A stretch of 64,000 nucleotides of DNA from Micromonospora parva (GTDB lineage Bacteria > Actinomycetota > Actinomycetes > Mycobacteriales > Micromonosporaceae), in the NCBI RefSeq assembly GCF_000718515.1, contig NZ_JNZS01000015.1:167442-231441 (forward strand), in the 5' to 3' direction. How positions within the stretch are numbered: the first letter of the stretch is position 1; every line of letters starts with the position of its first letter. The position numbers were made by a program, and so were the translations under genes. Of this stretch, positions 4,245 to 59,851 are shown one piece after another. Below the pieces are notes generated by a model. That model was not told the DNA's origin and searched no databases. It saw nothing but the letters and a program-made list of their open reading frames with translations.

Positions 4245-4667
4245 ATGCTCGGCATGGGCGCCGCCAACGATCGCCCCCGTGTAACGCTGGAGATTAATAA
4301 CGACGGCCTGCTCCTCGTGCAGGATGCTGTCGGCACCTGGCTAATCCAGGGCGCTGCCGACGGGTTGGTGCATCCGGCCGGGGACCGGCTGGTGTGGCTG
4401 CTGCCACTGCTGGAGCGCATCCCGACCGACGTCAGGGCGGCGTTGTCTCACGTGCCCCTGACTGACACGCCGCTACCCGCCCTCGTGCGGTTCGCCCTCA
4501 GCGCGTGGGGTGAGCATTGGCCGACGCTGGCACTCGACTGGTTGGACTCCGGGTGGCCGATCCGTGATCTGCTTGACGTACTGGCCGACATGAAGGACTC
4601 GTGCGCACTCTCCCAGCCGCTTCGCTACCGAGCGCATCGTCTCTGGCGTGCCTCGGCACATACTTGA
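4245..4667 (+). CDS. Hypothetical protein
   Basis: This 140-aa frame is taken from ATG 4245; the frame is open further upstream to 4152, overlapping the hydrolase, which I consider unlikely. It has a short beta-rich start (VTLEINNDGLLLVQDAVGTWLIQ, shown here in fragments VTLEINNDG and LLLVQDAVG) and a helical, Trp-rich remainder (WGEHWPTLALDWLDSGWPI). No family is recognised. It follows the cell-wall hydrolase by 82 bp on the same strand. AGG directly before the ATG is too close to be a good ribosome site, so the start is uncertain. Confidence 0.5.
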   Translation: MLGMGAANDRPRVTLEINNDGLLLVQDAVGTWLIQGAADGLVHPAGDRLVWLLPLLERIPTDVRAALSHVPLTDTPLPALVRFALSAWGEHWPTLALDWLDSGWPIRDLLDVLADMKDSCALSQPLRYRAHRLWRASAHT

Positions 4668-5162: not shown

Positions 5163-5906
5163 CCCCCTGATGCCCGGGGCATTTTTTTATCACGTCGGAC
5201 CATTGGGATCCAACCTCGACGCCTGCCGTCACAGTGCGGTCAACGTGACATGGAAGTTGAGTAACGACAACCAGAGATCCACGCTGTCCAACGCGCGATC
5301 AGCGGCATGAGAGTGAACATCTCGGACGATAGGTTGCCCACTTCGGCCTCGCAGAGGATGCGCTCCAGCATGGGGTGCGACATCTTCACTGCATGCCATC
5401 AGAGAAGCGGGATCAATGGTCTCCCCAAGCCCGTGCCGCCCTATCGCCGGCAATCGTCGGGCCGACCGACGCCGATGCGGTGACGGTGTGGGATGGCTCG
5501 GCCCGGTTCACATTTGCGTCGAGCGGGTCCCTGCAGGCCCGACTCAGGTGGCAAGTTTATTTACCATTTCGCGCGCACGCCTCCGCAAATGTCACGCGAA
5601 CCTCGAAAGAAGAGGGTCACGCATTCGGGTGACATTGCTTGACGCCAAGTCCATTTGCGAGTTATCCGGGCCATGCAGCTGCACGGTCCGCAGGGCTGCC
5701 GGAAGCCCGTGTCCGGCATGGCCGGCATTGCGGGCGCCGCATGTTCAGCATCAGCCAATCGACTGACGCCCATCCCACGGTCGCGGCCTTCACTTGACAC
5801 CTCGGCGTTGCTAGCTTGACCGCATGCAGCGACTGCCTATTCACTCTATGCGATCACCTGTTCGAATGCGACGCCGGACGGCGTGGAGGAGTCGAAGGGC
5901 GGACTG
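5163..5906. other. Intergenic stretch, no gene supported
   Basis: Only short, overlapping open frames with no convincing ribosome sites or protein-like composition are present here, and base composition is less GC-biased than in the flanking genes. A TTGACA hexamer at 5794-5799 lies about 110 bp before the nuclease operon, but I see no well-placed -10 box. The stretch probably contains the promoter of the defence operon. Confidence 0.5.
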
Positions 5907-7565
5907 GTGAGTGAGGAAACGGCGGCGCCCGCAGCCGCAGCCGGCCAGGCGGTGGTCGGCCTGGTGCCTGGGCCGCGAGCCGGTGACGACCCGGCTCCCG
6001 GATGGACGGTGCCACCGGGACTGCGGGGATCACCGAATCTCCTGAGGGTCACCTCGTCGCAGCTGAGCGGCGCAGACCGCAGCTGCCCGACCCACCGAGC
6101 AGTCAAAGCCCGGCCAGGGCTGCGGGCGATGCACTACATCGATGTCGACGAACCACCGATGGTACTCGGTCTGATCATGGACGTGCTCGATGCCGTCGAG
6201 TCCGGGCAGCCACTCGATGCGGCGCTCGGCCTGCTGGACGCGACGTTCTCGTCGGTGGTGGACGCCGACCCGCGCCGCTACATCGCCCATGCCGTCGACA
6301 CCTACCTGACGGCCACCGCCGACCGGCCACCGCTGCTTCCGCACCGGCACATATGGGCAATCCAGCACGAGTCCGACATCATCCGGGAACTGTGGTCATG
6401 GGGACGGCGGTACCAGTCCGCCGACGGCTCGCGGCGGGAACTGCGGTTGCTGCGGGCCAAAAGCCCCGACCCGGCGCGACGCACCAAAGCGGAGGTCGCG
6501 GTCGCCGCCTACGTGACCGCGTTCGGTTCGGCTGCCCGCAAGGGCGAGTATTGGGACAAGCCTTTCGAGCTCTACGACGGGCCGACGCCCGAACAGGTGA
6601 CGGTCCTGGAAATCGGGCTGTTCGACGGTTCCCGGGAGATCCTGTTCGACGGCACGGCGGCTCAGGCCCGCGACAAGTACCAGGCCGAGGGCCGCCAAAA
6701 GGTCCCTATCCTGCTGAACGGCTCCGGTGTGCAGACGGGCGGCGACTGCCCGAAATGCAGGCTCAAGGCCGCCTGCCCGGCTGTTGCTCGCGCCGGCGAT
6801 CTGCTCGGCGTCGTGGCTCGGCCGCGGACACCGCTGCGGAAGGTGTCGGTCAGCGATCTGCGCTATTACGAGCGCTGCCCGGCCCGGTACAGGCTGCAGT
6901 CGATGTGGCTGCCGCAGATCAACGAGTACGACCGGTACGCGCGGCTGGGCAAGGCCGTCCACAAGGTCTTGGAACGGCGGCACGCCGCCGCCACCGGGCC
7001 GTGCTCGGCGGCAAACATGCCCGAGGGCGACGCGTGGGCGAAGTGGGACCTCGACGAGCGTGAGGTGCGGGCGGGCGTGAAGATGCTGGCCAACCATGCG
7101 CTGGTTTGCCCCCTGCACACCGGTACCGGGCTGCGCGTCGAACCCACCTTAGCCTTCCACGACACCTCGGCCCAGGCGATGGTCATCGCCACCCCTGACC
7201 TGGTCTATCAAGACAGGGGCGCCTGGGTCTGGCGTGAAACCAAGACCACGCAACGGCCGACGAGCACCCGCCCACTCCTGGACCTGTACCCGCAGCTCGC
7301 GTTGGCGACAACGGTGCTGGCGGCCGGGCTGCTGGGCGGCGAGGTCAGCCGTGCCCGGATCGAGCTCGAGGTGTTGCGGCCGGAGTCCTCCGATCTGGTG
7401 CCGTTCGACCCGAACGAGCCTGCGAATCTGGCACAAGCGCGCGAGGTGCTGCGCAAACTCGCCCAGCCCTGGCGCGACGACACGGACTTTCCGGCGCGGC
7501 CCGGCGAAAACTGTCGTACCTGTCCGGTACGTAGATGGTGTCCCTCCGCCGTCGCCCCGGAGTAG
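5907..7565 (+). CDS. Cas4/AddB-like Fe-S PD-(D/E)XK nuclease
   Basis: The 552-aa product ends in a RecB/Cas4-type nuclease domain. YERCPARYRLQ near residue 325 gives the first cluster cysteine and the usual YxxCP entry motif. ATPDLVY supplies the Asp and WRETKTT the E-x-K near residues 430-447. CRTCPVRRWC close to the C-terminus completes the C-x2-C-x5-C set for a 4Fe-4S cluster. A further CPKC...C group near residue 280 may bind metal separately. The N-terminal 200 residues are unassigned. I chose GTG 5907 because AAGGGCGG precedes it by a few bases; GTG 5883 is the upstream alternative. It is the first gene of the pPIWI-RE operon, 14 bp from the next gene. Confidence 0.8.
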   Translation: MSEETAAPAAAAGQAVVGLVPGPRAGDDPAPGWTVPPGLRGSPNLLRVTSSQLSGADRSCPTHRAVKARPGLRAMHYIDVDEPPMVLGLIMDVLDAVESGQPLDAALGLLDATFSSVVDADPRRYIAHAVDTYLTATADRPPLLPHRHIWAIQHESDIIRELWSWGRRYQSADGSRRELRLLRAKSPDPARRTKAEVAVAAYVTAFGSAARKGEYWDKPFELYDGPTPEQVTVLEIGLFDGSREILFDGTAAQARDKYQAEGRQKVPILLNGSGVQTGGDCPKCRLKAACPAVARAGDLLGVVARPRTPLRKVSVSDLRYYERCPARYRLQSMWLPQINEYDRYARLGKAVHKVLERRHAAATGPCSAANMPEGDAWAKWDLDEREVRAGVKMLANHALVCPLHTGTGLRVEPTLAFHDTSAQAMVIATPDLVYQDRGAWVWRETKTTQRPTSTRPLLDLYPQLALATTVLAAGLLGGEVSRARIELEVLRPESSDLVPFDPNEPANLAQAREVLRKLAQPWRDDTDFPARPGENCRTCPVRRWCPSAVAPE

Positions 7566-7579
7566 CCCTGGAGCCCCGT

Positions 7580-8725
7580 GTGCCCGCAGCCGCCACAGCA
7601 CCGCCCGACCTGTCCGCGTTTTCCGGCGTGAAACTGCTGCGCCTGGTCGCGACTGCCGTGATCGACCTGTCCCGGCATGCACGAACCCCGGAACCGGTGT
7701 ACTCGGACAACGTGCAGAAGGCTTACAACCACGTCGTGGTGCAGAGCCTGCTTCGTGGCTCGGCGCCGCCGGCGAGCGTGACCGAGCTGGCCGAGTGGGC
7801 CGCCACGAAGCCGCTGGGTCAGTGGCCGCTGGAGCTTCCGGACGACATCGAACCGGTCGAGGAGTACCTCGTCGACGCCGGCACCCGGACCCCGACCCAG
7901 CTCTGTTACGAGTGGCACGTCCCCGCGCAGGACGCCGCGGCCGAGTTGTTCGAGAACGAGGTCATCCGGGACGTGTTCATCCAGTGCGAGGCCGCGGGCG
8001 CGCCGGCCGCCTACACGGCGTTCCGGCAGCTTCTGGTCGAGCATCCGGTGCTCACTGGCGTGCGGATGGCCATGCTGATCGGTGAGGCGCCGGAGCTGGG
8101 GCTGGTCATGGAAACCGTCAAGCGCTGCTACGAGCCCGCCCCCGCGGCGTTCCGGGCCGGTGACGGCACAATCACCACCTGCGCCCGCTGCGGCTGCCTG
8201 CTCAAACCGTACGGCACCGGTTGGCGGTGCGAACTCGACCGATGCCGCCGCGAACAGCGGCCCACCCCGGGCGAGCGGATCAACCCGGCCGCGACCGGCG
8301 GGGTCCTGCAGCTGCGGGCGCCGCTGCGGATGTTCATCACCGGGCCGGGCCTCGCCGAGATCGACCTGCAGAAGGAGCTCGCCCGCCGCGGGCTTCACGC
8401 GGAGATGTGGCCTGGCTGCGACGCCTACGACCTGCGGATCACCCTTCCGAACAAGGCGGTCTGGGCGATCGACGTTAAGGACCGGGCGAATCCCGCCCTG
8501 CTCGGGCACACCGCGACCGCGCTGCGCCATCAGCCCCGCTACGACGAGGCGTATCTCGTGGTCCCGGCCTATCGCTTCGCCGACCGGGAGGATTACGCGC
8601 GCGTGTTCAAGCACTACTGCCCGCCCGAGGTGGCCTCTCGGCTGCGGCTGATGAGCGACACCCAGTTCCTGCGGCACGTCTCGCGGACCCTGGCCCGCCT
8701 CGACGGGCAGACCGCCGATGCGTGA
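7580..8725 (+). CDS. pPIWI-RE-associated restriction-endonuclease-fold protein with zinc ribbon
   Basis: The 381-aa product has an N-terminal helical region, then a zinc ribbon (CARC near residue 200, paired with CELDRC about 20 residues later). It ends in a restriction-endonuclease-like domain: an alpha/beta entry (AEIDLQKELARRG), DAYDLRI supplying an Asp and AIDVKD supplying the D-x-K of a PD-(D/E)XK site. This composition fits the REase component of the three-gene pPIWI-RE cassettes described by Burroughs, Iyer and Aravind (2013). GTG 7580 is preceded by GGAG at 7570-7573 with 6-bp spacing. An in-frame ATG at 7535 would overlap the upstream gene by 31 bp. The stop overlaps the helicase ATG by 8 bp. 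Confidence 0.78.
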   Translation: MPAAATAPPDLSAFSGVKLLRLVATAVIDLSRHARTPEPVYSDNVQKAYNHVVVQSLLRGSAPPASVTELAEWAATKPLGQWPLELPDDIEPVEEYLVDAGTRTPTQLCYEWHVPAQDAAAELFENEVIRDVFIQCEAAGAPAAYTAFRQLLVEHPVLTGVRMAMLIGEAPELGLVMETVKRCYEPAPAAFRAGDGTITTCARCGCLLKPYGTGWRCELDRCRREQRPTPGERINPAATGGVLQLRAPLRMFITGPGLAEIDLQKELARRGLHAEMWPGCDAYDLRITLPNKAVWAIDVKDRANPALLGHTATALRHQPRYDEAYLVVPAYRFADREDYARVFKHYCPPEVASRLRLMSDTQFLRHVSRTLARLDGQTADA

Positions 8726-11700
8726 CCGCAGCAGCTGGCACAAGGAACTGATGGCCGAACTGTCCCCGGTGTGGCCGCGCACCGGCAGCGGCCTGCAGCT
8801 GAGCGACCTGCTCGACGTCGAGCTGGGTCTCTACCTGCTGCACACCGTGATGCCGCACCGGGCCGCCGGCGACGCGTGGACGCTGTTGAGCGGCTACCCC
8901 TACGGCGAAGCGTTCGGCGACGTGCGCAGCCCGCGGGACCGGCTGATGATCCGCCGGGCCCGGCACTACCTGTGGGACCGCGCCCGCCGCTACACCTGGC
9001 GCAACTCACTCGCGCTCTACCGCGAGGTCGAGATCCGGCTGCGCGGCTTCGACCTCGACGACCTCGACGCCCCGCCCCGCCGGCAGCAGCCCTCCCGCGC
9101 CGCCAGCCGGTTCGAGACGTTCCATCGGCTGCTGAGCTCACCGCCGCCGCTGGAACGGCATCAGCTGAGCATCGCCGGCGTGGGCGAGCACGTCTTCCAG
9201 GTCCGCGACCAGCGGTACTCAGCCCGGATCCCCGCCGTGCTGGTCGAACAGAGCACGCCGCTGCGCCACGACCTCGACGCGCTGCCCCCGGGCAAAGGGG
9301 CGCCGATCACCGCCAGTTGGGAGCAGCTGACCACTGCCGCGGCAACGATGGACGACATCGAAGAGCGCACCAGAGGGAAAACCAACCAATGGGCCCGCCG
9401 CCTCGACCGGGTGGCGCTGTTCAGCCGCGACAATACCGCCCGGGAGTACGTGCCCAGCGGCGACCTGCGCATCGAGCAGCTCATGCACATGGTCGGCATG
9501 GTCGGCGCCGGGAAGTCGACCATCCGGGACATCCTCACCTACCACCTGGCCACCGACCCGGCCTGCCGGCGCCACATCACCATCCTCGTCGGTGACGTCG
9601 CCGAGATGCTCACCGTCACCGCCCAGTTCAACCGGCTCGGCGTGCCCGCCGCCCCCGTGCTCGGGCATTCCACCCTGGAACGCAACATCCAGCGCCTGCA
9701 TCGGCGCGCCGAAGCCGGCGCGGAAACGATGCTGGCCCACCAGCATCCCGGATTCGCCTACCTGTCCAGCGCCTGCCCGCTGGATGCGCTGCGCGGATTC
9801 GAAGCCCGCCGCGCGCTGCGCATCGGCGAAGCCCCGTGCGACCGCCTCTACCCCGACCCCGACCCCGACAGCGACGACGGGGGCGCTGACACGCCGTCGG
9901 GCGGCCGGTCACGGGGCCTGACCCGGCAAGGGTGCCCGCTCTGGTACACCTGCCCGCGGCACCACGGCGCCCGGGACCTGGTCACCGCCCGGGTGTGGGT
10001 CGCCACCCCGGCCTCGCTCGTGCACAGCCGGGTGCCCGCCCACCTGACCAGCAAGACCATCCGCTACGCCGAGCTCGCCTGTCGGCGCAGCGACCTGATC
10101 ATCGTGGACGAGGCCGACCGGGTCCAGATGCAGCTGGACACCGCGTTCGCGCCGGCCGCGACCCTGGTCGCCCAGGGCAGCGAGTCCTGGCTGGACGAAG
10201 TCGGGAAACACAAACTCACCGAGCTTGCCCGTCAGGCCCGGCTACAGCTGTCGCGCTACGACATCGACGACTGGGGCAACGCGCTCAACACCGTCATCGC
10301 CGCCACCGACCGCATCTACTCGATGCTGATCACCAACGAGCCGCTGCGCCGCTGGATTACCCAGGACTACTTCTCCGCGATGACCCTGCACCAGTGGCTG
10401 CTCAACGAATGGTTCCCCCAGCTGCGCCGCAACCAGAACAGCGACGAGACCGGCCTTGCCGGGCAGCGGGCGGCGATGGCCCGCGTCGACCAGGTCCTCG
10501 ACCGGTTCCGCGACAACCCGCTCTCCCCGGTGCAGCCGTCTGGCCCGGACGACACGGTCACCGTCCTGGTCAACTCGCTGGTTAACACCGCCATCGAGCT
10601 GCTGCACGCGCAACGCGGCGAAACCGGCCGCCGCTACTTGCGCGACCGGCTGCGCACCCTCATCAGCGAGCTCGTACCCGGCGACAGCCCCGCGCCCGGT
10701 GAGAGTCCGGTGCTGGGCGCCGGGGAGGCCAACCTCGACCGGTTCGAGTTCACCCTGGTGTTGGCTGTGCTGCACAACCGGCTCAACTTCGTCACCACCC
10801 TGTGGCCGCGGGTCGAGGCCGCCCTGAACCTGGAAGCCACCTCGAACGTGCTCTCCCGGCGCCCGCCCAAGGACTACATGCCGATCGTGCCCGAGTCGCC
10901 GATGGGTAACGTGCTGGGCTTCCAGTTCCAGGCCGGCGAACGTAACGCCGACGGGGAGCAGAGCGGCGAGCTGCGGTTCTTTCGCTGTAACGGAGTCGGC
11001 CGGGAACTGCTGCTGGAACTGACCGGCATCCCCGCCATCGACGACCGGCCCGGCCCCAACGTGCTGCTCATGTCGGCCACCAGCTGGGCCGGCAGCTCCA
11101 GCCGCTACCACCTGCACGCCCCCGTGGACGCGATCCTGCGCCCGCACGACCACGAAATCGCTGCGATTAAGCAGAGCCGGTTCCGGACCGAATTCCTGTA
11201 CCGGCCCGACAGCACCGAAGCCCTGCGCCTATCCGGCGTCGACCCGCAACGACGCCCGCAGCAACTCGAGCAGATGCTGCACGCCCTGGCCGTCCCCGAC
11301 CGCACCCTCGGCGGCGCCACCTCCCTTTTGCAGCAGGAACTCGACGCCATCCCCGACCCGCAACGACGCCGGATCCTGCTGCTGGTCGGTAGCTACGCCG
11401 AAGCCGCCCACGCTGGCACCTACCTCAACAGCCAGCCCGAGTGGGCCGGCAACGTCACCGTGCTGGTCGCCGACGACAGCGACCTCGACCACTCCTGGAA
11501 CACCCTGTCCACCCAGCACGGACGCCACTACCTGCGCCGCGGCGAGATCACCACCTTCCCCGACGCCGGCGGGCAGCTGCTCATCGCTCCGCTGCTGTCG
11601 GTCGAACGCGGCCACAACATCGTCACCCCCGGCGGGAAAGCCGCCATCGGCAGCGTCTACTTCCTGGCCCGCCCGCACCACCGGCCCGACGACATCACCC

Positions 11701-12170
11701 TGGCGACCCAGGCCATCAACGACTGGGCGGTGCGCCAATACCGCGGCGCCGGCCGCCCGTTCCAGCAACTCGTCCTCGCCCAGGGCACCCCGGACGCGGC
11801 CGGCGTCCGGTTCCGACAGGAAGCCAGCCGCCGCTGGCACCGCTACCTGACCCGCCGCCTGTCCTGGACCAGCCTGCCCGCCGACGAGAAATCCTCGTTC
11901 ACCTGGGACCAACTAGTCGTCATCTGGCAGGTCATCGGACGGCTCGTCCGCGGCGGCGTCGCCGCCCGCGTCTACTTCGTCGACGGCGCGTTCTCCCCCC
12001 GCGAGGCCGGTTTCAAAGGCGCCGACACCCCGGAAACCAGCCTGCTGCGCAGCATGATCCACGAGCTCGACCCGTATTTCGACCCGGCCAGCGCCGTCGA
12101 CCCGCTCGACCGTTCCCTGGTGCGGGCCCTCTACCAGCCCCTGTACGACGCGCTGCGCGCCATGGGCTGA
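8718..12170 (+). CDS. DinG/XPD-like Fe-S helicase of the pPIWI-RE cassette
   Basis: This 1150-aa superfamily-2 helicase has Walker A (GMVGAGKST) near residue 263 and a DEAD-type Walker B (IIVDEADR) near 463. Between them are four cysteines (ACPLD, APCDR, GCPLWYTCP, at about 352-411) in the place where XPD/DinG helicases hold a 4Fe-4S cluster. The sequence WVATPASLVHS after the cysteines and a motif-VI-like VIGRLVRGG near 1070 complete the set. The first 230 residues form an extra domain, probably the cassette-specific N-terminal module. It is translationally coupled to the REase gene upstream and 31 bp before the pPIWI-RE gene. Expected role: unwinding target DNA or hybrids for the associated nucleases (inference). 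Confidence 0.85.
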   Translation: MRDRSSWHKELMAELSPVWPRTGSGLQLSDLLDVELGLYLLHTVMPHRAAGDAWTLLSGYPYGEAFGDVRSPRDRLMIRRARHYLWDRARRYTWRNSLALYREVEIRLRGFDLDDLDAPPRRQQPSRAASRFETFHRLLSSPPPLERHQLSIAGVGEHVFQVRDQRYSARIPAVLVEQSTPLRHDLDALPPGKGAPITASWEQLTTAAATMDDIEERTRGKTNQWARRLDRVALFSRDNTAREYVPSGDLRIEQLMHMVGMVGAGKSTIRDILTYHLATDPACRRHITILVGDVAEMLTVTAQFNRLGVPAAPVLGHSTLERNIQRLHRRAEAGAETMLAHQHPGFAYLSSACPLDALRGFEARRALRIGEAPCDRLYPDPDPDSDDGGADTPSGGRSRGLTRQGCPLWYTCPRHHGARDLVTARVWVATPASLVHSRVPAHLTSKTIRYAELACRRSDLIIVDEADRVQMQLDTAFAPAATLVAQGSESWLDEVGKHKLTELARQARLQLSRYDIDDWGNALNTVIAATDRIYSMLITNEPLRRWITQDYFSAMTLHQWLLNEWFPQLRRNQNSDETGLAGQRAAMARVDQVLDRFRDNPLSPVQPSGPDDTVTVLVNSLVNTAIELLHAQRGETGRRYLRDRLRTLISELVPGDSPAPGESPVLGAGEANLDRFEFTLVLAVLHNRLNFVTTLWPRVEAALNLEATSNVLSRRPPKDYMPIVPESPMGNVLGFQFQAGERNADGEQSGELRFFRCNGVGRELLLELTGIPAIDDRPGPNVLLMSATSWAGSSSRYHLHAPVDAILRPHDHEIAAIKQSRFRTEFLYRPDSTEALRLSGVDPQRRPQQLEQMLHALAVPDRTLGGATSLLQQELDAIPDPQRRRILLLVGSYAEAAHAGTYLNSQPEWAGNVTVLVADDSDLDHSWNTLSTQHGRHYLRRGEITTFPDAGGQLLIAPLLSVERGHNIVTPGGKAAIGSVYFLARPHHRPDDITLATQAINDWAVRQYRGAGRPFQQLVLAQGTPDAAGVRFRQEASRRWHRYLTRRLSWTSLPADEKSSFTWDQLVVIWQVIGRLVRGGVAARVYFVDGAFSPREAGFKGADTPETSLLRSMIHELDPYFDPASAVDPLDRSLVRALYQPLYDALRAMG

Positions 12171-12201
12171 CCAGCCCGGCACGCCCCCGAAAGGACCCCG
12201 C

Positions 12202-15051
12202 ATGGTCTACGACCGTCAGCAACCCGCCGTGCTCCTGCCCCGCATGCCGATGCACACCACGTTCCAGACGTTGGCTTTCCCGGACGAATGGCGTGAACGC
12301 ATCGCCGGCCTGCACGCGGCGAACTACCCGGACCGAACGCTGTCCCCGACCCGGCGGATCCCGATCCGCCGGCTCAACGCCCTGCTACGCGTCGCCGCAC
12401 CCGACCTGATCTCCGCGGCCACCTACACCAGCGTCCGCGACGGCGACCCCTGGCTGTACGCCAAGACGGCCTGCCCACCACCGGTGCTGCGCACCCTGTT
12501 CAACGCCTGGCTCTACGACCTGGCCCGCAGGGACATCGCCAAGCCGCTCGTGGTGCCCACGATCAAAGCGCTGGATGCTGCCGACCTCCAGTGGCGGCCG
12601 GAAAAAATCGACCTGCTCGAGTGCACCACCTCGGACGGCGGCACCGCCGTTCCCAAGGCGCGGCTCTACACGCTGCTGACCGACGCGATCGCCTGGCAGA
12701 TCGCGCAGCATTCCGCCCGGGACCCCTACACCCACGAGGGCGGGCAGCTGAAGTTCCGGCAGGTCGCGGCCAACCCGTCGGCCGACGGCGCCGAACTGGT
12801 GTCCTGGCCACCCCTGACCTATCAGGCCAAAGGCAAGAACCCGCGTACTTGGCTCTACAGCGCCTACCTGCGCATCGCCCTGCGCACCGTCCCCTTCGAC
12901 CCGCGACCGCGCCTGCACGTCAACGTCGGTGTGCGCCGCTGGACCTCGAACGCGGTCCGGCCGAAAGGCCTCAACGCCGCCTCGGTGTATCTGCTGTCGG
13001 CCAACCCATTCGCGGCCGGCGCCAGCGTGCCCGACAAGTTCGCGGTCGCCCGCGTCCAATGGAACCCCAGGATCGACGCGCTGAGCTGGGTGAACTCCGG
13101 ACCCGAGCAGATGCTATCGCGCCTGAACATCATCGCGAAGCTGCCCGACGCCGCGGAACTCGGCCGCCAGTCCGACCTGTGGCTTCCCGAACGTGACGGG
13201 GTCACCGCCGCCGTCGTCTACCACACCACCATGCAGGGATCCCACGACGTCGGCACCGGGATCATGCCGGCCGAACGGCGACGTCTGCTGGCCTGGGTCG
13301 AGGGCGTCGTCGCGCCTCACTTCGAACTGGCGGAACCGCTGCACAAGGTGCCGGGCATCAAACGGGCCGGTACCACCTTCACCAAACTGACGCCCATCCC
13401 GCGCAGCAACAGCGGCAAGCTGCCGGAAGCCGACTACGAGGCGAAGCTCGCCCAGGCGCGCGCCACCCGCCGGTCCGAGACCGCGGCCAACGCCCGGCTG
13501 CGCCGGCAACGGCTCGCCGAGGTCACCGGCACCGAAGGGTTGACCGTGGCCCTGCTCGATCAGCCGTCCCGGACCATGCGGACCCTGCTTCTCGACACGG
13601 TCGAAGAACTCCTCGACCTGCCACCACGCACCACTGCCGACACGGACACGTGGACGTGGAACGTCGACGGGTTCACCCTCACCGTCCGCGCCCGTGTGCT
13701 GTCCAACCTGGGCGGCCCGCTCGGCAGCGGCAGCACGCCCCGCAAAGGCGCCCAGCACGACGCCGCCGTCACCACCCGGCGCGACCAGGTCGCGGCCGCC
13801 CTGACTACCTGGGGACGTGAGCAGGGTGGCGCGGCCGATGCGGCGCTGGTCGTCTTGGAGGGGCGGGAGAAATTCCGGCGCCGCACCACCGACCCGAAGT
13901 TCGCAATCCGCCTGGGCTGCGCCGACGCCGGCGCGGTCAGCCAGTTCATCAGCCCCGAGAAAGACGGCGAGGACGCCACCGCCGAGCACCGGGCCGAAGC
14001 CACCTGGTTGGACCTGTTCCGGCAGGTCGGCATGCGTTTCGTGCCCGAAGCCCGCGGCCTCGACATCCCCGACGGCCTCAACCAGATCGCGTTCTGGATC
14101 GTCAAACGCCGCAGGGACGACACCAACACCCGCAAGCTGTTCATCCCCGTCGCCGTACTGATCCGCCCCGGCAACCCCTGCGTCATGGGCCGCGCCAAAG
14201 GCATGCCCGGCTGGGTGCCGTACCCGCAGCTACTCAAACACCTCGCCGGCTACCACGAACCGGACATGCCCCGCACCGAGCAGGAGCAGATCGCCGCCGT
14301 CGCGGCCTTCGTCCGCAGCACGCTCAACGCGCTGCGCGCCGACCACACCCTGGTGGTGGTCGACGCCCAGAACATCCGCAACCGGCTGCCCTCAATGCAG
14401 AACACCCACCTCGAGGCCGAACGCATCCAGTTCGCCGACGGGGTGAGCCAGCCCGTGGCGACGTACGGCGAACGCATGCGGCTGGTCCGGATCGGCGGGA
14501 ACGACCGCATGGAAACACCGCAGGCGTGGGCGGCCCAGCCCGACAGCACCGGCATCTCGTCCGGCCTCTGGTACGACGCCCAGCACCTCGACCTCGACAC
14601 CACCCGTGTCTTCTACAGCACCGTCGAAAAGCCGGTCACCCACAACAAGATCGGTGTCGAGCTGGCCAAGCTGACCCCGCATCACACCAAGATCGAACCC
14701 AAGCTAGACGCATCAGACGAGCAAGAGGTGAAAGAACGAGATCACTTCAACCCCGGCTCCGCGGCCTGGAACCCGGAGCTGTTGCAGTTCACCGTCGTCG
14801 CCAAACCCGAAGACGAGACTAGCCTTCTCTGGGCGGCGTTCCTGCACCAGCAGCGGTCCTGCTTCGACGACTACACCTCGGCGCTCGGCGTCCCGCTGAT
14901 CCTGCACCTGGCCACGCTCACCACCCGCTACGCCCTGCCCACCGAAGACGACGAAGCCGACGACGAGGACGAGGGCAGCCCGCAGGCCCCCGCGGATCCG
15001 GAAGCGGCCGCCGAAGCCGACGACGAAGACGACCTCGACCTCGAGCTGTAG
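12202..15051 (+). CDS. pPIWI-RE protein (bacterial PIWI-family, RNase H fold)
   Basis: The 949-aa product fits the pPIWI-RE family. The N-terminal half (about 20-400) resembles the DUF3962-type region (FPDEWRERI, PPVLRTLFNAWLYDLARRD). A linker domain follows, then an RNase H-like PIWI module (about 540-910) with LNQIAFWIVKRRRDD, HTLVVVDAQNIRNRLP, GLWYDAQHLDLDTTRVFYST and a terminal AWNPELLQFTVV/ALGVPLILHLATLTTRYALP block. I cannot tell which acidic residues are catalytic. The last 35 residues are almost all Asp/Glu. A GAAAGGA ribosome site precedes ATG 12202. The operon context with a DinG-like helicase and a REase is the diagnostic neighbourhood for this family. Role: nucleic-acid-guided or structure-directed defence is predicted, not shown here. 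Confidence 0.82.
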   Translation: MVYDRQQPAVLLPRMPMHTTFQTLAFPDEWRERIAGLHAANYPDRTLSPTRRIPIRRLNALLRVAAPDLISAATYTSVRDGDPWLYAKTACPPPVLRTLFNAWLYDLARRDIAKPLVVPTIKALDAADLQWRPEKIDLLECTTSDGGTAVPKARLYTLLTDAIAWQIAQHSARDPYTHEGGQLKFRQVAANPSADGAELVSWPPLTYQAKGKNPRTWLYSAYLRIALRTVPFDPRPRLHVNVGVRRWTSNAVRPKGLNAASVYLLSANPFAAGASVPDKFAVARVQWNPRIDALSWVNSGPEQMLSRLNIIAKLPDAAELGRQSDLWLPERDGVTAAVVYHTTMQGSHDVGTGIMPAERRRLLAWVEGVVAPHFELAEPLHKVPGIKRAGTTFTKLTPIPRSNSGKLPEADYEAKLAQARATRRSETAANARLRRQRLAEVTGTEGLTVALLDQPSRTMRTLLLDTVEELLDLPPRTTADTDTWTWNVDGFTLTVRARVLSNLGGPLGSGSTPRKGAQHDAAVTTRRDQVAAALTTWGREQGGAADAALVVLEGREKFRRRTTDPKFAIRLGCADAGAVSQFISPEKDGEDATAEHRAEATWLDLFRQVGMRFVPEARGLDIPDGLNQIAFWIVKRRRDDTNTRKLFIPVAVLIRPGNPCVMGRAKGMPGWVPYPQLLKHLAGYHEPDMPRTEQEQIAAVAAFVRSTLNALRADHTLVVVDAQNIRNRLPSMQNTHLEAERIQFADGVSQPVATYGERMRLVRIGGNDRMETPQAWAAQPDSTGISSGLWYDAQHLDLDTTRVFYSTVEKPVTHNKIGVELAKLTPHHTKIEPKLDASDEQEVKERDHFNPGSAAWNPELLQFTVVAKPEDETSLLWAAFLHQQRSCFDDYTSALGVPLILHLATLTTRYALPTEDDEADDEDEGSPQAPADPEAAAEADDEDDLDLEL

Positions 15052-15110
15052 CCGGCGGACCGCGCGCTACCGCCGCGCCGCACGACCCCGTCGGCGGCAG
15101 GGCGGTGGAT

Positions 15111-15956
15111 TCAGCCCAGGTCGAATCCGCCGTCGCAAAACCAGTCCGACTCGCTCAACGCGACGTACATGGCCGTCTGCCAGCTGTTCAGGCGCGCATG
15201 CCGGCAGCTGTCGGCGTTCTCCTGCAGAAAGTCGCGCACTCCGTCGGCTCCGCCGGTGGCGGCGAGCTGGCCGAGCCGGTACTCCAGATTTGCCAGTTCC
15301 TGGGCGGCCTGCGCCGTGTACAGCGCGCCCAGCCCGAACCCGTCGAAGTGATGCCGGGCGCGGGCCTGATCGGCGGCCGCCCAGTGCTGCGGCGCCTCGA
15401 CGAAGAACCGCACGGCCGGCGGCCGGTCCTGTTCGACGGCCGCGTGCAGCCACCGGTCGGTGTCGAAATGGTCGTAGTAAGGGTGCACCGCAGCGGTCTG
15501 CGCCGACGCGGCGACCTGGTTGCCTTTCCTCTTGTTGCACTCGTGACAGGCTGGCACCAGGTTGAGCGGGGTCACGGCCAGCGCCGGGAACTTCGTTTTC
15601 GGCAGCACATGATCCAGGGTCCGGGCGTCCCGGTGCCCGCACGACGGGCAGCGGTTGTGCGGGGCTGCGGCACGGATCGCGTCATAGATGTGCCGGGCGG
15701 CCCCCTTCGGGTGGGCCATCCGGTCGTCGTACAGCGTGATCATCTGTTTGCGGGTAACGGCGTCGGCCTCGAAGTCCTTCTCGCGCAGTGCGTGCGCCAG
15801 ACCCCGCTCTGCCGCGGCTGCATAGCTCGCCGCGGCGGCGGTGACCGTGCCGGTCGCCGAGCGGTACACCGCGCGCAGGTCCCTGTCGCGCATCCGGCTG
15901 ATGGCGGCCTCGTAGGTTTCCTGGGCGGTGTGCCGGGGCTTCGGAAGGCTCCACAT
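15111..15956 (-). CDS. HNH endonuclease, partner of the AAA ATPase
   Basis: The 281-aa product has an HNH core at about residues 95-140: CPSCG, then LDHVLPK (the DH pair), NLVPACHECNKRKG with the second zinc CxxC and the downstream Asn. The N-terminal 90 residues are helical. The C-terminal half contains aromatic-rich helices (HPYYDHFDTDRW, HFDGFGLGALY). Its ATG 15956 overlaps the ATPase TGA by one base, so the two are co-translated. Paired AAA ATPase and HNH nuclease genes define Septu (PtuA/PtuB) defence and the effector part of type I-A retrons. The HNH subtype here is not close to the PtuB sequences I remember, so I call it Septu-like only. Confidence 0.82.
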   Translation of the reverse strand: MWSLPKPRHTAQETYEAAISRMRDRDLRAVYRSATGTVTAAAASYAAAAERGLAHALREKDFEADAVTRKQMITLYDDRMAHPKGAARHIYDAIRAAAPHNRCPSCGHRDARTLDHVLPKTKFPALAVTPLNLVPACHECNKRKGNQVAASAQTAAVHPYYDHFDTDRWLHAAVEQDRPPAVRFFVEAPQHWAAADQARARHHFDGFGLGALYTAQAAQELANLEYRLGQLAATGGADGVRDFLQENADSCRHARLNSWQTAMYVALSESDWFCDGGFDLG

Positions 15957-17569
15957 CAGAGGGCCCCGCCGGCTTCGCGGACCGCGATCAGCCCACGAAC
16001 CAAGGCGCGGGCCTCCCCGCCGAGCCGGCCGTCGAACCGCTCGACGATCTCCGGGTACGACTGACCCTGCGCGACCGCGTCCCGCAGCACCTTGTGGAAA
16101 CCCGAGCGGGTGACTTCCAGACCGAAAACCTCCCTGGTTAGCACCCCGACGTTCTCCCCGAACGTTTCGATCTCGGGCCGCTCAGCGACCAGCACGTCGC
16201 CGGCTCGCCGCAGCTTCCACGCACACACCCGCGGCACTTCCTGCAGCACCACCGGCGAGTGGGTCGCGATGATCGCCACCCCGTTGCGGTTGATCAGCAG
16301 ATCCGACAGCGCACGCACGAACGCGGCCAGCAGCGGCGGGTGCAGGTGCGCCTCCGGCTCGTCGAGCAGGACCAGCGATCGCTCCTCGACGGTCTCGACC
16401 AGACGCGTCATCGTCAGCAGCACGATCTTGTGACCGGAGCTCAGGTCACGGAAAAGATCCCGTGCCGTGTCGCCCACGTCGTCGCTGGTCGCCAGGTCAG
16501 CGAGCTCGATCACCCCGGCATCCGCGAAAATCGGATCACCGGCCAGCAACTGCAGGGCGCGTTGCCACCGTCCCCGGCGTGCCGGCTGACGGCACGCCTG
16601 GACGCTCCTGCCGAACTCGCCGGCCAGCGTGCGGTGGTCCTTCGGCGGGAGCGGTTTCTCGTTGGTCTTGTTGCGCCGCACCCGTTTGAGACCGATGTAG
16701 GCGTATCGGGAGTTGCTGCCGCCGATCGGTTCGAACCTGTCGAAGGCGCTGAAGCTGACCGAGATCGCGTTCGTGAAGTTGTCCGCCCGGTCGTCGTCGG
16801 CGTCGAAGGTGAAGGTGCCCGATTGGCCGTCAGCGACCGGGGCCAACTCGCCCGCGACGACATGGCTCAGGTGGTGCAGCAGGTGGGTCTTGCCGACGCC
16901 GTTCGACCCGATGAGCACGTGGATGTTCGTCGGCGGTTCCGATTCGGGGACCACGTCGAACTCCAGCGTGGCGCCCAGATCCGGAAGGTCGGCAGACGGC
17001 GGCGTGCGATAGGTGAACCGGAAGCGGGTCAGATGCAGACCGCCGAGGGCCTGGCGCCGAAACTGACCCAGGACGCTGGTGTGGGTCAGCGCGCGTAGCA
17101 GCGACACGGTCGTGACTTCTTGCGTCAGGGCCCGGGGATACAGATCTTCGTCGGCCGCTATGTCGTGCAACGCCGTCAGGACCTCAGCCCGGACATGCTC
17201 GCCGAGCCGGTTCAGCTGCTCGTAGTAGGTGCCATCCTGGCCCACCGAGAAGAAGTTCTCGTCGAGCCGGTCGAAGGAGTCCGGCAGCGCCGGCGACCGC
17301 TGGTCCGACCCCATACCAAACTGGCCGATCTTGACCTCGCCGATACGGGTCAGTTCGCCTGCCTCGTCACGGACCAGCAGCAGGTACATCGTCTCGAAGC
17401 GGAACCAGTCATCCCAGTTGTCATGCACCAGGAACGCCTCAGGCCCGGCATCATCTTCAGCGCCAGCAACGTCCTCGGGGAAGGCATGCCCGGCTGGGAC
17501 CACGACAAAGTGCACGAGACGATCTCTTCCTGATCCGCGCGACGGCTGGGTGACGTCCGGGTAATGCAC
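15956..17569 (-). CDS. AAA/ABC-type ATPase, Septu PtuA-like
   Basis: The 537-aa protein has a unique N-terminal 200 residues, then an SMC/ABC-like ATPase: Walker A LIGSNGVGKTHLL near residue 221, a long insert with ISVSFSAFDRFEPIGG, a signature-like DLSSGHKIVLLTMTRL, Walker B SLVLLDEPEAHLHPP near 405 and the IIATHSP switch histidine. This is the AAA_21/OLD-like arrangement seen in PtuA and retron ATPases. No TOPRIM domain follows, so it is not an OLD nuclease; the nuclease is the adjacent HNH gene. The GTG start at 17569 lies inside a short direct repeat (17560-17578) and has no strong ribosome site, so the N-terminus may differ by some residues. Confidence 0.8.
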   Translation of the reverse strand: MHYPDVTQPSRGSGRDRLVHFVVVPAGHAFPEDVAGAEDDAGPEAFLVHDNWDDWFRFETMYLLLVRDEAGELTRIGEVKIGQFGMGSDQRSPALPDSFDRLDENFFSVGQDGTYYEQLNRLGEHVRAEVLTALHDIAADEDLYPRALTQEVTTVSLLRALTHTSVLGQFRRQALGGLHLTRFRFTYRTPPSADLPDLGATLEFDVVPESEPPTNIHVLIGSNGVGKTHLLHHLSHVVAGELAPVADGQSGTFTFDADDDRADNFTNAISVSFSAFDRFEPIGGSNSRYAYIGLKRVRRNKTNEKPLPPKDHRTLAGEFGRSVQACRQPARRGRWQRALQLLAGDPIFADAGVIELADLATSDDVGDTARDLFRDLSSGHKIVLLTMTRLVETVEERSLVLLDEPEAHLHPPLLAAFVRALSDLLINRNGVAIIATHSPVVLQEVPRVCAWKLRRAGDVLVAERPEIETFGENVGVLTREVFGLEVTRSGFHKVLRDAVAQGQSYPEIVERFDGRLGGEARALVRGLIAVREAGGAL

Positions 17570-17578
17570 GGTAATGCA
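17560..17578. promoter_or_regulatory. Tandem 9-bp repeat in the divergent ATPase/RT control region
   Basis: GGTAATGCA occurs at 17560-17568 and again at 17570-17578, ten bases apart (one helical turn), overlapping the ATPase start codon. The 129-bp gap between the ATPase and RT genes must contain both promoters. This spacing is typical of an operator bound by a dimer or tandem repressor, but no cognate regulator is visible nearby. A TAGATA box about 7-12 bp before the RT ATG hints at a leaderless RT transcript. Confidence 0.4.
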
Positions 17579-17698
17579 TCGGCACCGCGAACGGCCCGCA
17601 TGCGTCCTGCCCGAGACGCCATCCGGCCTGGAGCCTCGGTCACGTACCTACGCCTCGGCGCAGCACCCAGCCGATGCCGTCTGTGATAGATACGAGCT

Positions 17699-19195
17699 AT
17701 GCAACCGGTGCCCGCTACGGTCTTGTCCCGGCTCGACCTGGAACAGGCCGCCCGCCAGGAAGCCGGCGCCACCGAAGCGCTGATGCCGACGGCGCCGGGC
17801 ACGGTCCAGCTTGCGCAGAACGCCGCACCGTTCGCATCGTGGCTTGCTGGACAGCTTCAAGCCGGTCTTGTCCCGTGCCGTGGTCTCATCGTGGCGGTCG
17901 CCAAACCCGACACCGGCATACGACCGGTCGCAGCCTGGGGTCTCGCCGAACGCGTCACCTACCGGGCGCTCACCGACCTGCTCATGAGCGAAGCGAAGTA
18001 CGAGGGCGGCCGTTCCCCGGAAGCGCACGCGGAGTTCTCGTACGCACCGTTGGCGCACGCCCTGACCCGGGGCAGGCGCCCCGACGCTCCGAAGGAGCAG
18101 CAGTGGCCACACAGCGCCGCCGTCCAGTACGTGGTGAGGGCTGACGTTGCCGCATTCTACGACTACATCGACCACGACATCCTCGCCCGGGAACTGCTGC
18201 TGCGTGCCGCGGACCACGCGGCCATCACTTGCCTGCTGGAGCTCCTGTTCGAGGTGCAGGGCCGCCGCTACGGCCTGCCGCAGCTACTCGAGCCCTCCGA
18301 CCGGCTCTCCGACCTGTACGCGGCACGAATCCTCCGGGCGCTGCGCCGTAAACAGTGGGCGGCGTGGCGGTACAACGACGACTTCCGGATCGCCACCGAC
18401 ACCTTCGAAGACGTCAAACGCTCGCTCGACGACCTGGCGGCGGCCGCCCGCGACAACGGCCTGGTGCTCAACGAGTCCAAAACCCGCACGCCGTCGTTCG
18501 CGACCTACTGGGAAGATAACGAGATCCCCGACTACGACGACAGCGCGGACACTGATCCGCAATGGGCCATCGACGTCCTCAACGCCACCGTGACACCTCG
18601 AGACCTCGCCGCGGGCAGCACGGCCACCGGGCAGATCCCGTTGCACGAGGCTGACCGCGGCGTGATCCGCAAAATCCGACGCGCTCTGATCCGGCTCGCC
18701 GATCCGCCCGAGCCACAGGCGATCACGGTCCTGCCGAAGCTGGAAAACATCGTCGCGTTCGTCAGCTCCAGCACCCCGTACGCCCTGGCCTACCTGCAGG
18801 CGATGGCCCACACCAACCGCTCCGCGGTCGTGACGAGCCTCACCGCCCTCATCGCCGACGTCAGCCTCAGCGGCTGGCAGCGGCTGTGCCTGCTGCGGGC
18901 AATTCACGAACTTGGCCTCACCGACGCCGACCCCTTCAGCACCTGGGTCACCGATCACCGGGCCCAGCGGTACGAGCCTGCCGTGCGCGCCGAGGCCGCC
19001 CTGGTACTGGCCGCAGCAAACAAGATCGATGCGCCGGAGGTCATCCGCGCCCTCGACGAGGAACCCTCGGCCCTGGCCAGCTGGTATCTAGTCGCTTTAC
19101 GGCATCTACATTCACATGGCACCGTCTCGCCGGAGGCCTACGACGCGGTCCGCGACGAGAGCGGCCTGTACGCGGCCATCCTGGCTCGGCCATGA
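17699..19195 (+). CDS. Reverse transcriptase, unclassified (UG/DRT-like)
   Basis: The 498-aa product has the ordered RT palm motifs: KPDTGIRPVAAW and RVTYRALTDLL early, motif A VVRADVAAFYDYIDHDIL near 144-162, motif B-like YGLPQLLEPSDRLSDLYAA near 190-210, catalytic RYNDDF near 225 (Y-N-D-D rather than YADD), and GLVLNESKTRTPS after it. There is no group II intron maturase or X domain, and no clear retron VTG motif. The C-terminal 240 residues are helical repeats (HEAT-like in appearance), as in several defence-associated RTs. The gene is divergent from the ATPase/HNH pair, and its TGA overlaps the start of the next gene (ATGA). I cannot name the RT class without a phylogeny. Confidence 0.85.
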   Translation: MQPVPATVLSRLDLEQAARQEAGATEALMPTAPGTVQLAQNAAPFASWLAGQLQAGLVPCRGLIVAVAKPDTGIRPVAAWGLAERVTYRALTDLLMSEAKYEGGRSPEAHAEFSYAPLAHALTRGRRPDAPKEQQWPHSAAVQYVVRADVAAFYDYIDHDILARELLLRAADHAAITCLLELLFEVQGRRYGLPQLLEPSDRLSDLYAARILRALRRKQWAAWRYNDDFRIATDTFEDVKRSLDDLAAAARDNGLVLNESKTRTPSFATYWEDNEIPDYDDSADTDPQWAIDVLNATVTPRDLAAGSTATGQIPLHEADRGVIRKIRRALIRLADPPEPQAITVLPKLENIVAFVSSSTPYALAYLQAMAHTNRSAVVTSLTALIADVSLSGWQRLCLLRAIHELGLTDADPFSTWVTDHRAQRYEPAVRAEAALVLAAANKIDAPEVIRALDEEPSALASWYLVALRHLHSHGTVSPEAYDAVRDESGLYAAILARP

Positions 19196-28032: not shown

Positions 28033-29250
28033 ATGGCCCGACCCGAACTACCGCTGGGCACCTGGGGCAAGATCCGCACCCAGCAACTCGGACCCAATCG
28101 GTTCCGCGCGCGAGCGCGCTTCCGCGACTACGACGGCAAGACCCGCGACATCGAGGCCACCGGCACCACCGGACCCGCCGCAGAACGGGCGCTGAAGGTC
28201 AAGCTGCGTGACCGCACCACCCCTAACGACGACGAGATCACCCGGGAGACCCGCGTCAGCAGACTCGCCGATCTGTGGATCGAGGAGATCACCACCGAGG
28301 AGCGGATCGCGCCACAAACCATCCAGCGATACGAGACCAGCACCCGCAACGCGATCCTGCCCGCCCTGGGCAACCTCCGGATCAGAGAAGCCAGCGTCGG
28401 GCGCCTGGATCGGTTCCTGCGTGACATCGCCAAGGACCGTGCCTCGGCAGCCAAAGGCGCGAAAGTCGTCCTGAGCCAGATGTTCGCACTGGCCGTTCGC
28501 CACGGCGCGATCCCCACCAACCCCGTCCGCGACACCGGCCGGCTCCGCAAACCCCGCCGCACAGTCGTCGCCCTCACCGACGAGAACCTCCAGGCCGTCC
28601 GGACGGCTATCCGTGACTGGCAGCGGCCGATCCCCGGTAAGCCTGGACCACGGCACAGCGGCGATCTGGCGGACGTCGTTGACCTGATGCTCGCCACCGG
28701 TGCCCGCATCGGCGAGATCCTCGCCCTGCGGTGGGAGGACCTCGACCTCGTCGCCGTACGCCCCACCCTGACGATCTGCGGCACGCTCGTCTTCGTCAAA
28801 GGCCAGGGCTTCTTCCGCCAACCCTGGACCAAGAGCGACGCCGGCTGGCGAATGGTCGTCCTCCCCCGGTTCGCCGTCGGCATGATCATGGCCCGCAAGC
28901 TCGTCGCCGCCGACAACCCCCACGACGCGATCTTCGCCTCCCGCCGCGGCACCTGGCTCTCACCCAACAACGTCCGTCGCCAGTGGCGCGAGGCCCGCGC
29001 CGACACCGACCTCGCCTGGGTTACCCCCCACACCTTCCGCAAGACCGTCGCCACCCTCATCAAGGAAGAGACCGACACGAAAAGCGCCGCAGCACAGCTC
29101 GGACACTCCAGCGAGGAGGTCACCGCCACGTACTACATCGCCAAGCCAGCCCAAGCCCCGGACGTCTCGGACATCCTCGAGCGACTCGGCATCGACCACG
29201 GGACGCGGCAAGATCCCCCAACCGGCTTGCCCAACGATGCACAGGGATGA
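28033..29250 (+). CDS. int: Tyrosine integrase of the element
   Basis: This 405-aa phage-type integrase has an N-terminal arm-binding region, a SAM-like core-binding domain (about 70-160) and a C-terminal catalytic domain. Catalytic residues visible are Arg in ATGARIGEILALRW (about 220), the HTFRK box (H..R, about 335) and LGHSSEEVTATYYI with the nucleophile Tyr near 365. The gene points at the tRNA-Pro 3' end 115 bp away, which identifies that tRNA as its attachment site. Upstream is the xis-like gene, 5 bp away. Length is normal for actinobacterial tRNA-targeting integrases. Confidence 0.93.
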   Translation: MARPELPLGTWGKIRTQQLGPNRFRARARFRDYDGKTRDIEATGTTGPAAERALKVKLRDRTTPNDDEITRETRVSRLADLWIEEITTEERIAPQTIQRYETSTRNAILPALGNLRIREASVGRLDRFLRDIAKDRASAAKGAKVVLSQMFALAVRHGAIPTNPVRDTGRLRKPRRTVVALTDENLQAVRTAIRDWQRPIPGKPGPRHSGDLADVVDLMLATGARIGEILALRWEDLDLVAVRPTLTICGTLVFVKGQGFFRQPWTKSDAGWRMVVLPRFAVGMIMARKLVAADNPHDAIFASRRGTWLSPNNVRRQWREARADTDLAWVTPHTFRKTVATLIKEETDTKSAAAQLGHSSEEVTATYYIAKPAQAPDVSDILERLGIDHGTRQDPPTGLPNDAQG

Positions 29251-29360: not shown

Positions 29361-29364
29361 CTGT

Positions 29365-29437
<73 letters not shown>

Positions 29438-49677: not shown

Positions 49678-49748
49678 CGTGACCATCCTGGCATGTGAGG
49701 CAGGCTTTTCTGTCGCGACATGCCTGAGCAGGGCCGCCTACCCAGGGA

Positions 49749-49781
49749 AGCACACACCGGCACAAGCCGGTGTGCTTGCGC
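49749..49781 (-). terminator. Imperfect hairpin downstream of recN
   Basis: AAGCACACACCGGC and GCCGGTGTGCTT pair with a two-base bulge around ACAA, in the 110-bp recN-steA gap about 16 bp after the recN stop. A short T-rich run is lacking, so efficiency is uncertain. Confidence 0.4.
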
Positions 49782-49796
49782 TCACAATACGCGGCG

Positions 49797-51560: not shown

Positions 51561-51643
51561 CGACAGTAGACGCGAGGCCCGACACTTGACCAGCCGACGG
51601 GCCCGGGCACGGCCCGCACCCGGCCGACGTACAGTTCTGCCCC

Positions 51644-52663: not shown

Positions 52664-52667
52664 CGCC

Positions 52668-52705
52668 GCGAGGGCCCGCCGTCGACCCCGACGGCGGACC
52701 CTCGC
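52668..52705. terminator. Shared hairpin between convergent regulator and subtilase genes
   Basis: Arms 52668-52684 and 52689-52705 are 17 bp with one mismatch around an ACCC loop. It lies between the two convergent stops and probably acts on both strands, though no T-run is present. Confidence 0.6.
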
Positions 52706-52745
52706 CGACCGGGCGGGACGGCCAGGCAGCCCCGCCCACGCCGCG

Positions 52746-56468: not shown

Positions 56469-56626
56469 GCGATGCGCTCCTCTACTCCTCCAGGCCCACC
56501 ATCCGTAGATGAGGGCCGATCGGAGTCTGCGACGGCGCGCGTCACCAGGTCACTAGTCGCCAGCCGCCGCAGCGGCGACATGTCGTCAGGTGGACACCGC
56601 ACATCCACCGACAGTGTGTGCCGCGG

Positions 56627-57511: not shown

Positions 57512-57602
57512 CGGGTCGCCCGCCCATCCTGGACCGGGCGGCACCGCGACACCGTCGCCCCGCCACACCCGCGTGTCGTCGCGGTGCCCTCGCTGCGCGC
57601 GT

Positions 57603-58463: not shown

Positions 58464-58501
58464 GGGTGGTTCTCCGGTCTGCTCAGGCCTGGTCGTCCCG
58501 C

Positions 58502-58816
58502 TCAGGTCTGGTCGATGGTGGCGAGGGTTTCCCGCAGCGTCTCGTAGGCCGCCTCGTAGTGGGCGATCTGGTCGGCGGGGGCGAGCGTTGCCGCGTTCGC
58601 CAGGGACTGCACGGCGGCGTCCACCGCCGGGTGTCGCGTGTCGTCGTCGTCCCCGAACTCCGCTGGCGGCCCGGGGCGGGCACCCGCCGGCGGCCCGGGC
58701 CGGGCCGGGAAGGAGCTGCCCGCCGGTGGGCCGGGCCGGGCCGGGAAAGACCCGCCGGGCGGTGGGCCGGGCCGGGCCGGGAAAGAGCCGCCCGCCGGTG
58801 GGCCGGGCCGGGTCAT
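58502..58816 (-). CDS. Small protein with 12-residue Pro/Gly repeats
   Basis: The 104-aa product begins with about three copies of a 12-residue repeat of type ARPGPPAGGSFP (36-bp DNA period, about 58700-58800). A soluble helical C-terminus follows (AVDAAVQSLANAATLAPADQ and IAHYEAAYETLRETL). Its ATG 58816 overlaps the stop of the phasin-like gene by 4 bp. The C-terminal helices are likely the conserved part; the position between tlyA and a coiled-coil protein equals the short Rv1693 gene. Function unknown. Confidence 0.75.
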   Translation of the reverse strand: MTRPGPPAGGSFPARPGPPPGGSFPARPGPPAGSSFPARPGPPAGARPGPPAEFGDDDDTRHPAVDAAVQSLANAATLAPADQIAHYEAAYETLRETLATIDQT

Positions 58817-59391: not shown

Positions 59392-59502
59392 GCCTGAGTC
59401 CTTCCACGGGGCGGGGTGTGCAGGTGTCACGCTACCGGGCACCCCGGACCGGTCCGTGCGGTACGGTGCCGAGGACGGCGTGGCGATCAGCGAGGGGGAG
59501 AT

Positions 59503-59841: not shown

Positions 59842-59851
59842 ACTGTTGCCG

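Follow-up and report, generated by a model that had tools for sequence, protein, structure and literature searches.

Does the nuclease gene at the head of a pPIWI-RE operon in Micromonospora parva belong to that operon, and what might its product do there? The operon lies in a 64,000-nucleotide stretch of contig NZ_JNZS01000015.1 (assembly GCF_000718515.1, positions 167,442 to 231,441; hereafter the window), in which four plus-strand genes, here called A, B, C and D, encode an iron-sulfur (Fe-S)-type PD-(D/E)XK nuclease, a protein with a restriction endonuclease (REase)-fold domain, a DinG-like helicase and a pPIWI-RE protein (Table 1). A first-pass annotation of the window, made from the sequence alone, noted that the cassette described in 2013 has three genes, and the main text of that description (Burroughs, Iyer and Aravind, PMC3702460) does present pPIWI-RE genes either as a triad in strict order or as standalone genes, with the words Cas4, RecB, four-gene and fourth occurring 0 times. 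Genes B, C and D share the domains, the strict REase-DinG-PIWI order and the overlapping or close spacing of the triad in that text, from which the window differs by the extra gene A upstream. As read from its sequence, this is a four-component pPIWI-RE defence operon, with a predicted role in guide-directed DNA defence, and our comparisons support A as a true fourth member of some, not all, such operons.

The four genes are tightly packed, with 14 bp between A and B, an 8-bp overlap of B and C and 31 bp between C and D, and all four have a strong bias in GC content at third codon positions. The best PADLOC matches were PprPDDEXK for A (E 4.4e-108), PprRE for B (1e-78), PprDinG for C (5.2e-237) and PprPIWI for D (1.3e-167). 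Against Pfam, A matched PDDEXK_1 (1.3e-27), B matched pPIWI_RE_Y (3.3e-41) and pPIWI_RE_REase (8.7e-36), C matched pPIWI_RE_Z (3.9e-43) and D matched pPIWI_RE_X (5.4e-95), MID_pPIWI_RE (2.5e-29) and RNaseH_pPIWI_RE (1.8e-59), all three above the cut-off. The coordinates, gene order and spacing given in the first-pass annotation were exact, these profile matches bore out its four protein identities, and its concern that the 949-residue D protein might miss the pPIWI-RE profiles proved unfounded. Gene D is the one match to RNaseH_pPIWI_RE (PF13032) in the whole genome (7.13 Mb, 87 contigs).

In B, which stands first in the triad and carries domain Y as in the three-gene systems, the zinc ribbon, D284 and D298-x-K300 are intact. 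The DinG-like helicase C likewise has the Fe-S cysteines and domain Z of those systems, with intact Walker A (GAGKST), DEAD, four-cysteine insert and motif VI (QxxGR). At the presumed slicer position D has W632, and R763 (28 of 29 A-bearing rows) and E771 (29 of 29) are probably, from their position in a hairpin, the Arg and Glu pair that names the family; these residues were read from a 54-row alignment of D in which one locus is entered twice (L088 and L089) and some of the rows are incomplete. A separate observation concerns a plasmid of Microvirga sp. VF16 (L188, 10020-16979; record 49737-59921), where the RNaseH/pPIWI-RE gene is annotated as a single frame of about 3,400 residues, which greatly exceeds the length of every other pPIWI-RE protein in this analysis.

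How often A accompanies pPIWI-RE operons was assessed in samples drawn with the PIWI profile, independently of A, from 394 genomes of the class, 200 of the family and 396 of the phylum; the genome profile search scored only 3 to 11 first-look candidates per genome, making the counts lower bounds. The survey of pPIWI-RE loci proposed in the annotation found A conserved directly before B in 7/14 usable operons of the class sample (17 of 394 genomes with a PIWI match; dropped were G607, with no B or C found, G470 at a contig end, G573 below the cut-off, and fragments on G246 contig 32 and in one G023 match) and in 11/22 usable loci of the family sample (23 of 200 genomes with a match; G880 was dropped at a contig end, together with fragments in G829, G833 and G919 contig 28). 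Six of the 396 genomes in the phylum sample matched, five of them shared with the class sample, and the sixth (L086) has B-C-D without A. An extra scan gave 14 loci, 12 with A, and is not used as a frequency as its pattern came from an alignment that favours near relatives. Both samples and these 12 loci bring the A-bearing total to 29 (the shared window genome, G000, counted once), so that the nuclease is not, as the annotation had allowed, peculiar to this locus and unlinked to other pPIWI-RE genes. The order A-B-C-D was invariant across the 29 loci wherever D was present, and the 8-nt overlap of B and C recurred in 26 of them (extrapolated from the profile start); L129 is cut in C by a contig end, L131 has B in two pieces, and L085/L095 and L124/L125 are near-copies.

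Proteobacteria, Cyanobacteria and Bacteroidota were sampled only via plasmid records, in which the 2 records with A matches and the 26 with C matches had none in common; eight such plasmid regions list no PD-(D/E)XK gene before B, as judged from their gene lists and not from the A profile, which was not run on them. A contig scan with D alone gave 0 of 593 stretches, and A was absent from 15 stretches of viral contigs and from 50,697 phage records.

In a quick, unrooted tree of 47 helicase rows, all 28 rows with A formed one side of a single branch with a support of 100 (Shimodaira-Hasegawa-like approximate likelihood ratio test, SH-aLRT), requiring one change in A presence where shuffled labels needed about 15. 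Left out of this tree were L129 and L157, which are cut, and five very distant A-less rows (L094, L096, L098, L158 and L164; entry limit E 1e-100), and long rows stand on both sides of the branch (L086, L089, L163; L092, L126). As the A-less rows include other phyla, the simplest reading is a single gain of A in an actinobacterial clade that has since retained it, bearing in mind that an unrooted tree cannot tell gain from loss. Across 28 loci the distances of A correlated with those of D (0.911) and C (0.854) and less closely with those of B (0.668), values that take no account of shared host ancestry, and the best of 500 shuffles reached 0.30, 0.33 and 0.44, respectively. These parallels are most simply explained by common descent of the genes. 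Adjacency in 29 loci, the single tree branch and this parallel divergence led us to reject A as a chance neighbour.

The protein encoded by A has two complete C-xn-C-x2-C-x5-C sets, C60/C281/C284/C290 in a first, degenerate nuclease-like domain and C324/C536/C539/C545 in a second domain of active type. The annotation had described a full cysteine set with D/ExK residues, which is present as the latter set with D431, E444 and K446, and had overlooked the other complete set and the degenerate first domain. H359, D431, the ExK motif and both complete cysteine sets were conserved in 29/29 operon A proteins, and Fe-S binding and nuclease activity are predicted for A. The annotation's label of Cas4/AddB-like stood in the broad sense, with an H-D-ExK-Q active site beside the cysteine pattern (the metal cluster itself being predicted), but not as Cas4 proper, which was rejected since TIGR00372 gave 27.6 bits against a cut-off of 65, with its best stretch only at residues 314-357. 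Among solved folds the nuclease domain of AdnA comes nearest, the fold of ACE1 being also similar, and the nearest folds work beside helicases or Argonautes, RecE excepted. In mycobacterial AdnAB the AdnA nuclease is joined to a superfamily 1 (SF1) helicase; A, in which Pfam at E 0.1 gave no helicase domain, is not a fusion of that type.

Overall, A looks like a duplicated Cas4/AdnA-type domain of which the first copy has lost its active site. The weak-to-fair case for duplication comes from an alignment of half-profiles (hhalign, E 4e-5 for one comparison, with a probability of only 42.9), a matching order of secondary structure between the halves (read by eye) and equal cysteine spacing in both; a Pfam scan of the first half alone gave no match. 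Few relatives cover residues 1-31, counted from GTG 5907, and their predicted local distance difference test (pLDDT) score is under 50, so the true start may lie up to about 100 nt downstream.

Nucleases of the A type also occur elsewhere. With a strong match defined as E < 1e-30, a search by A found strong matches in 27 of the 394 class genomes (89 at E 0.001, mostly weak C-terminal matches), 7 in operons and 20 elsewhere, and in 14 of the 200 family genomes (52 at E 0.001), whose 15 strong loci divide into 11 in the operon and 4 elsewhere; a weak partial match in G763 was dropped. At nine of the loci elsewhere, the A-type tandem nuclease directly follows a second, single-domain Cas4-like gene. 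Eight others occupy a conserved chromosomal region, with E444 and K446 lost in 8/8 and most cysteines kept, apparently a retained dead nuclease. Four loci combine an A-type gene with a small gene of about 270 codons and a convergent Peptidase_M78/IrrE-type gene (one representative scanned), which is next to A in 3 of the 4; the arrangement recurs on plasmids of Rhodococcus antarcticus and Streptomyces albidoflavus and is possibly a separate cassette, whose small gene appears PIN-like by eye only, a Pfam scan giving no match. The last three loci have an A homologue without a shared partner. These contexts clustered in an A tree of 55 rows, in which the operon rows and the nuclease-pair rows need two changes each and the chromosomal group stands beside operon row L091 (support 88). 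PprPDDEXK matched 4/4 representatives from outside pPIWI-RE operons.

What, then, would A do? The reading that we favour, at a probability of about 0.5, is that D, loaded with a short guide, would recognise invading DNA (or an R-loop), that C would unwind it and B make the cut, and that A would load where an end or a single strand is exposed and degrade the DNA, with its dead first domain as a DNA-holding or end-gating module, as with the nuclease/helicase partners in AdnAB; the products of A may secondarily feed the guide supply. Such an effector role on DNA is favoured by the kept active site, by the partners of the nearest folds and by two operons that combine a broken B with an intact A (the D-x-K of B is lost from both L092 and L126; L091 carries G and E in place of D284 and D298). 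Several observations weigh on the other side. About half of the sampled pPIWI-RE operons are without A, 24 of the 41 distinct strong A loci lie outside such operons (G000 counted once), and the distance correlations ignore shared host ancestry. With E444 and K446 kept in 18/18 rows of the three other contexts that are neither operon nor chromosomal, conservation of the A active site is, on the aligned rows, not special to pPIWI-RE. The A-less rows are likewise without Asp at position 632 of D (24 letters; 8 plasmid rows), and the idea that A simply stands in for a lost slicer was therefore rejected. It is highly improbable that A serves defence or repair on its own and is merely the upstream neighbour in a defence island, as its homologues in the four other settings might suggest; the constant order and adjacency, the one helicase-tree branch and the parallel divergence argue against it.

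Cas4 trims CRISPR prespacers, and A has a Cas4-type fold and motif. It might be, as the annotation suggested, a guide maker that cuts DNA of host, plasmid or phage origin to short pieces for loading into D, the main rival to our favoured reading but one that we regard as doubtful. Solved structures of the Argonaute-associated, Cas4-like ACE1 speak for it, as do the passages available of PMC10991935 in which the PsPIWI-RE protein of Pseudomonas stutzeri has a higher affinity for DNA guides than for RNA guides and cuts RNA when given DNA guides; in the same passages, however, PsPIWI-RE cut single-stranded DNA only with RNA guides, which a DNase does not supply. Operons without A are, moreover, equally frequent (7 and 7; 11 and 11), implying that guides can be made without it. 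A bolder combination, which we consider unlikely, would join the slicerless PIWI, the DinG helicase, the REase and the two-cluster nuclease in one complex acting both in the resection of invader DNA and as the source of its own DNA guides, giving self-priming guided immunity in which the dead first domain would measure or hold the strand to yield guides of fixed length. Less probable again is a regulator or safety factor, in which A would sense redox state or DNA ends and gate the helicase or REase, the nuclease only clearing self-derived intermediates: the degenerate first domain keeps its full cysteine set in 29/29 and a passage of PMC3702460 describes the cysteine domain of DinG as a redox sensor, but the catalytic residues of A are kept in 29/29 as well.

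The kind of system is already known, and the fourth gene is known to a database: PADLOC-DB 2.0.0 (2023) holds the four models that A to D match best, and their shared Ppr prefix implies that the PDDEXK partner was recognised by 2023. The annotation's proposal of a fourth component gained support from adjacency, the tree and divergence, whereas its extended variant is not new to PADLOC-DB and nucleases of this family also occur away from pPIWI-RE loci. In word searches of the open literature, which covered few subscription articles or preprints, the fourth gene was not the subject of any paper; the 2022 PADLOC paper cites the 2013 description and, in the parts examined, leaves a fourth gene unmentioned. 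As far as these searches show, it is undescribed that the A-bearing operons fall on a single branch, that A has a double-domain design, that its active site is kept throughout these operons and that A is reused in other cassettes. Among related systems, a passage of PMC6299218 states that genes for inactive prokaryotic Argonautes (pAgos) frequently occur together with nuclease genes, including those for Cas4, and one of PMC10653904 that a Cas4-like gene is occasionally found clustered with long-A pAgos; both concern classical pAgos, not pPIWI-RE, and DinG partners are unmentioned in these passages. ACE1 (Argonaute-associated Cas4 family protein 1; PDB 9iac, 9iab), compared by fold only and from partial records, has a chain of about 270 residues and an Argonaute partner, whereas A is a two-domain protein encoded with a pPIWI-RE protein, a helicase and an REase. 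The PsPIWI-RE gene lies, in the part of PMC10991935 seen, beside dinG and a nuclease gene as in the window, and its product has active-site residues D525 and D610 and cuts nucleic acid, whereas D has W at the presumed match of D525 (the sequences being unaligned).

The operon looks like cargo of an integrative conjugative element carrying three defence modules, given an integrase beside tRNA-Pro and TraG/VirB4-like, TrwB-like and Replic_Relax genes (type IV secretion system type) in the 20 kb upstream of the window. No repeat of the tRNA-Pro region (exact 16-base words) that could place the left end was found in the window and 40 kb upstream, and Rfam on positions 1-30000 gave only tRNA-Pro. 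The genome has a second, partial integrase copy on its contig C7, at 92% over 404 bases of the query. The HNH/ATPase pair beside D had no phmmer match (E 1e-10) in the flanks of other four-gene loci, which often extend only 3-8 kb past D. A UG22 reverse transcriptase also lies just downstream of D in L125, in two pieces (6062-7324 and 4291-4653, minus strand), and L009 has a fragment; a reverse transcriptase beside a PIWI protein could be relevant for guides.

Table 1. Features of the window and membership of the locus sets.
Feature or set	Position or members	Strand	Details
Gene A, Fe-S-type PD-(D/E)XK nuclease	5907..7565	+	552 aa from GTG 5907; PDDEXK_1, PprPDDEXK
A, first, degenerate nuclease-like domain	6009..6806	+	residues ~35-300; C60/C281/C284/C290; without D-ExK
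A, second, active-type domain	6807..7562	+	residues ~301-552; H359, D431, E444, K446, Q463; C324/C536/C539/C545
Gene B, domain Y, zinc ribbon and REase-fold domain	7580..8725	+	pPIWI_RE_Y, pPIWI_RE_REase, PprRE
Gene C, domain Z and DinG-like helicase	8718..12170	+	pPIWI_RE_Z, PprDinG
Gene D, pPIWI-RE protein (X, MID, RNaseH)	12202..15051	+	pPIWI_RE_X, MID_pPIWI_RE, RNaseH_pPIWI_RE, PprPIWI
Block 90.9% nucleotide-identical to Actinoplanes xinjiangensis (L009)	5723..17851		12,154 columns; operon and HNH/ATPase pair
HNH and PtuA-like ATPase pair, Septu-like	15111-17569	-	PDC-M01B 7.5e-107, PDC-M01A 6.2e-194, PtuA 2.2e-176
Reverse transcriptase, class UG22	17699-19195	+	PADLOC 7.4e-124
Tyrosine integrase	28033..29250	+	next to tRNA-Pro; presumed right edge of element
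tRNA-Pro	29363-29437	-	followed by EngA-type GTPase gene
Class sample, A directly before B	G000, G161, G246, G524, G557, G591, G633		
Class sample, B and C without A	G023, G182, G500, G501, G522, G666, G667		
Family sample, with A	G000, G754, G776, G824, G841, G872 twice, G875, G879 (two contigs), G899, G924		
Family sample, without A	G785, G828, G845, G869, G870 twice, G874, G893, G917, G919, G920		
Nuclease-pair loci	L108, L112-L114, L116-L120		L112 partner PDDEXK_1 2.8e-26, Cas4-like matches (representative scanned)
Chromosomal-copy loci	L106, L107, L109-L111, L115, L121, L122		L122 truncated
IrrE-type context	L133-L136; L176, L177		four genomes of the window's family; two actinobacterial plasmids

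A tandem nuclease with two complete cysteine sets is an unusual protein design, and it recurs in three or more further gene contexts, of which one occurs on plasmids. With a processing nuclease in every operon tested and a PIWI protein without the usual slicer residue, the A-bearing clade has a defined set of components. The presence of this fourth gene suggests that DNA-end processing is part of pPIWI-RE defence in one actinobacterial lineage.
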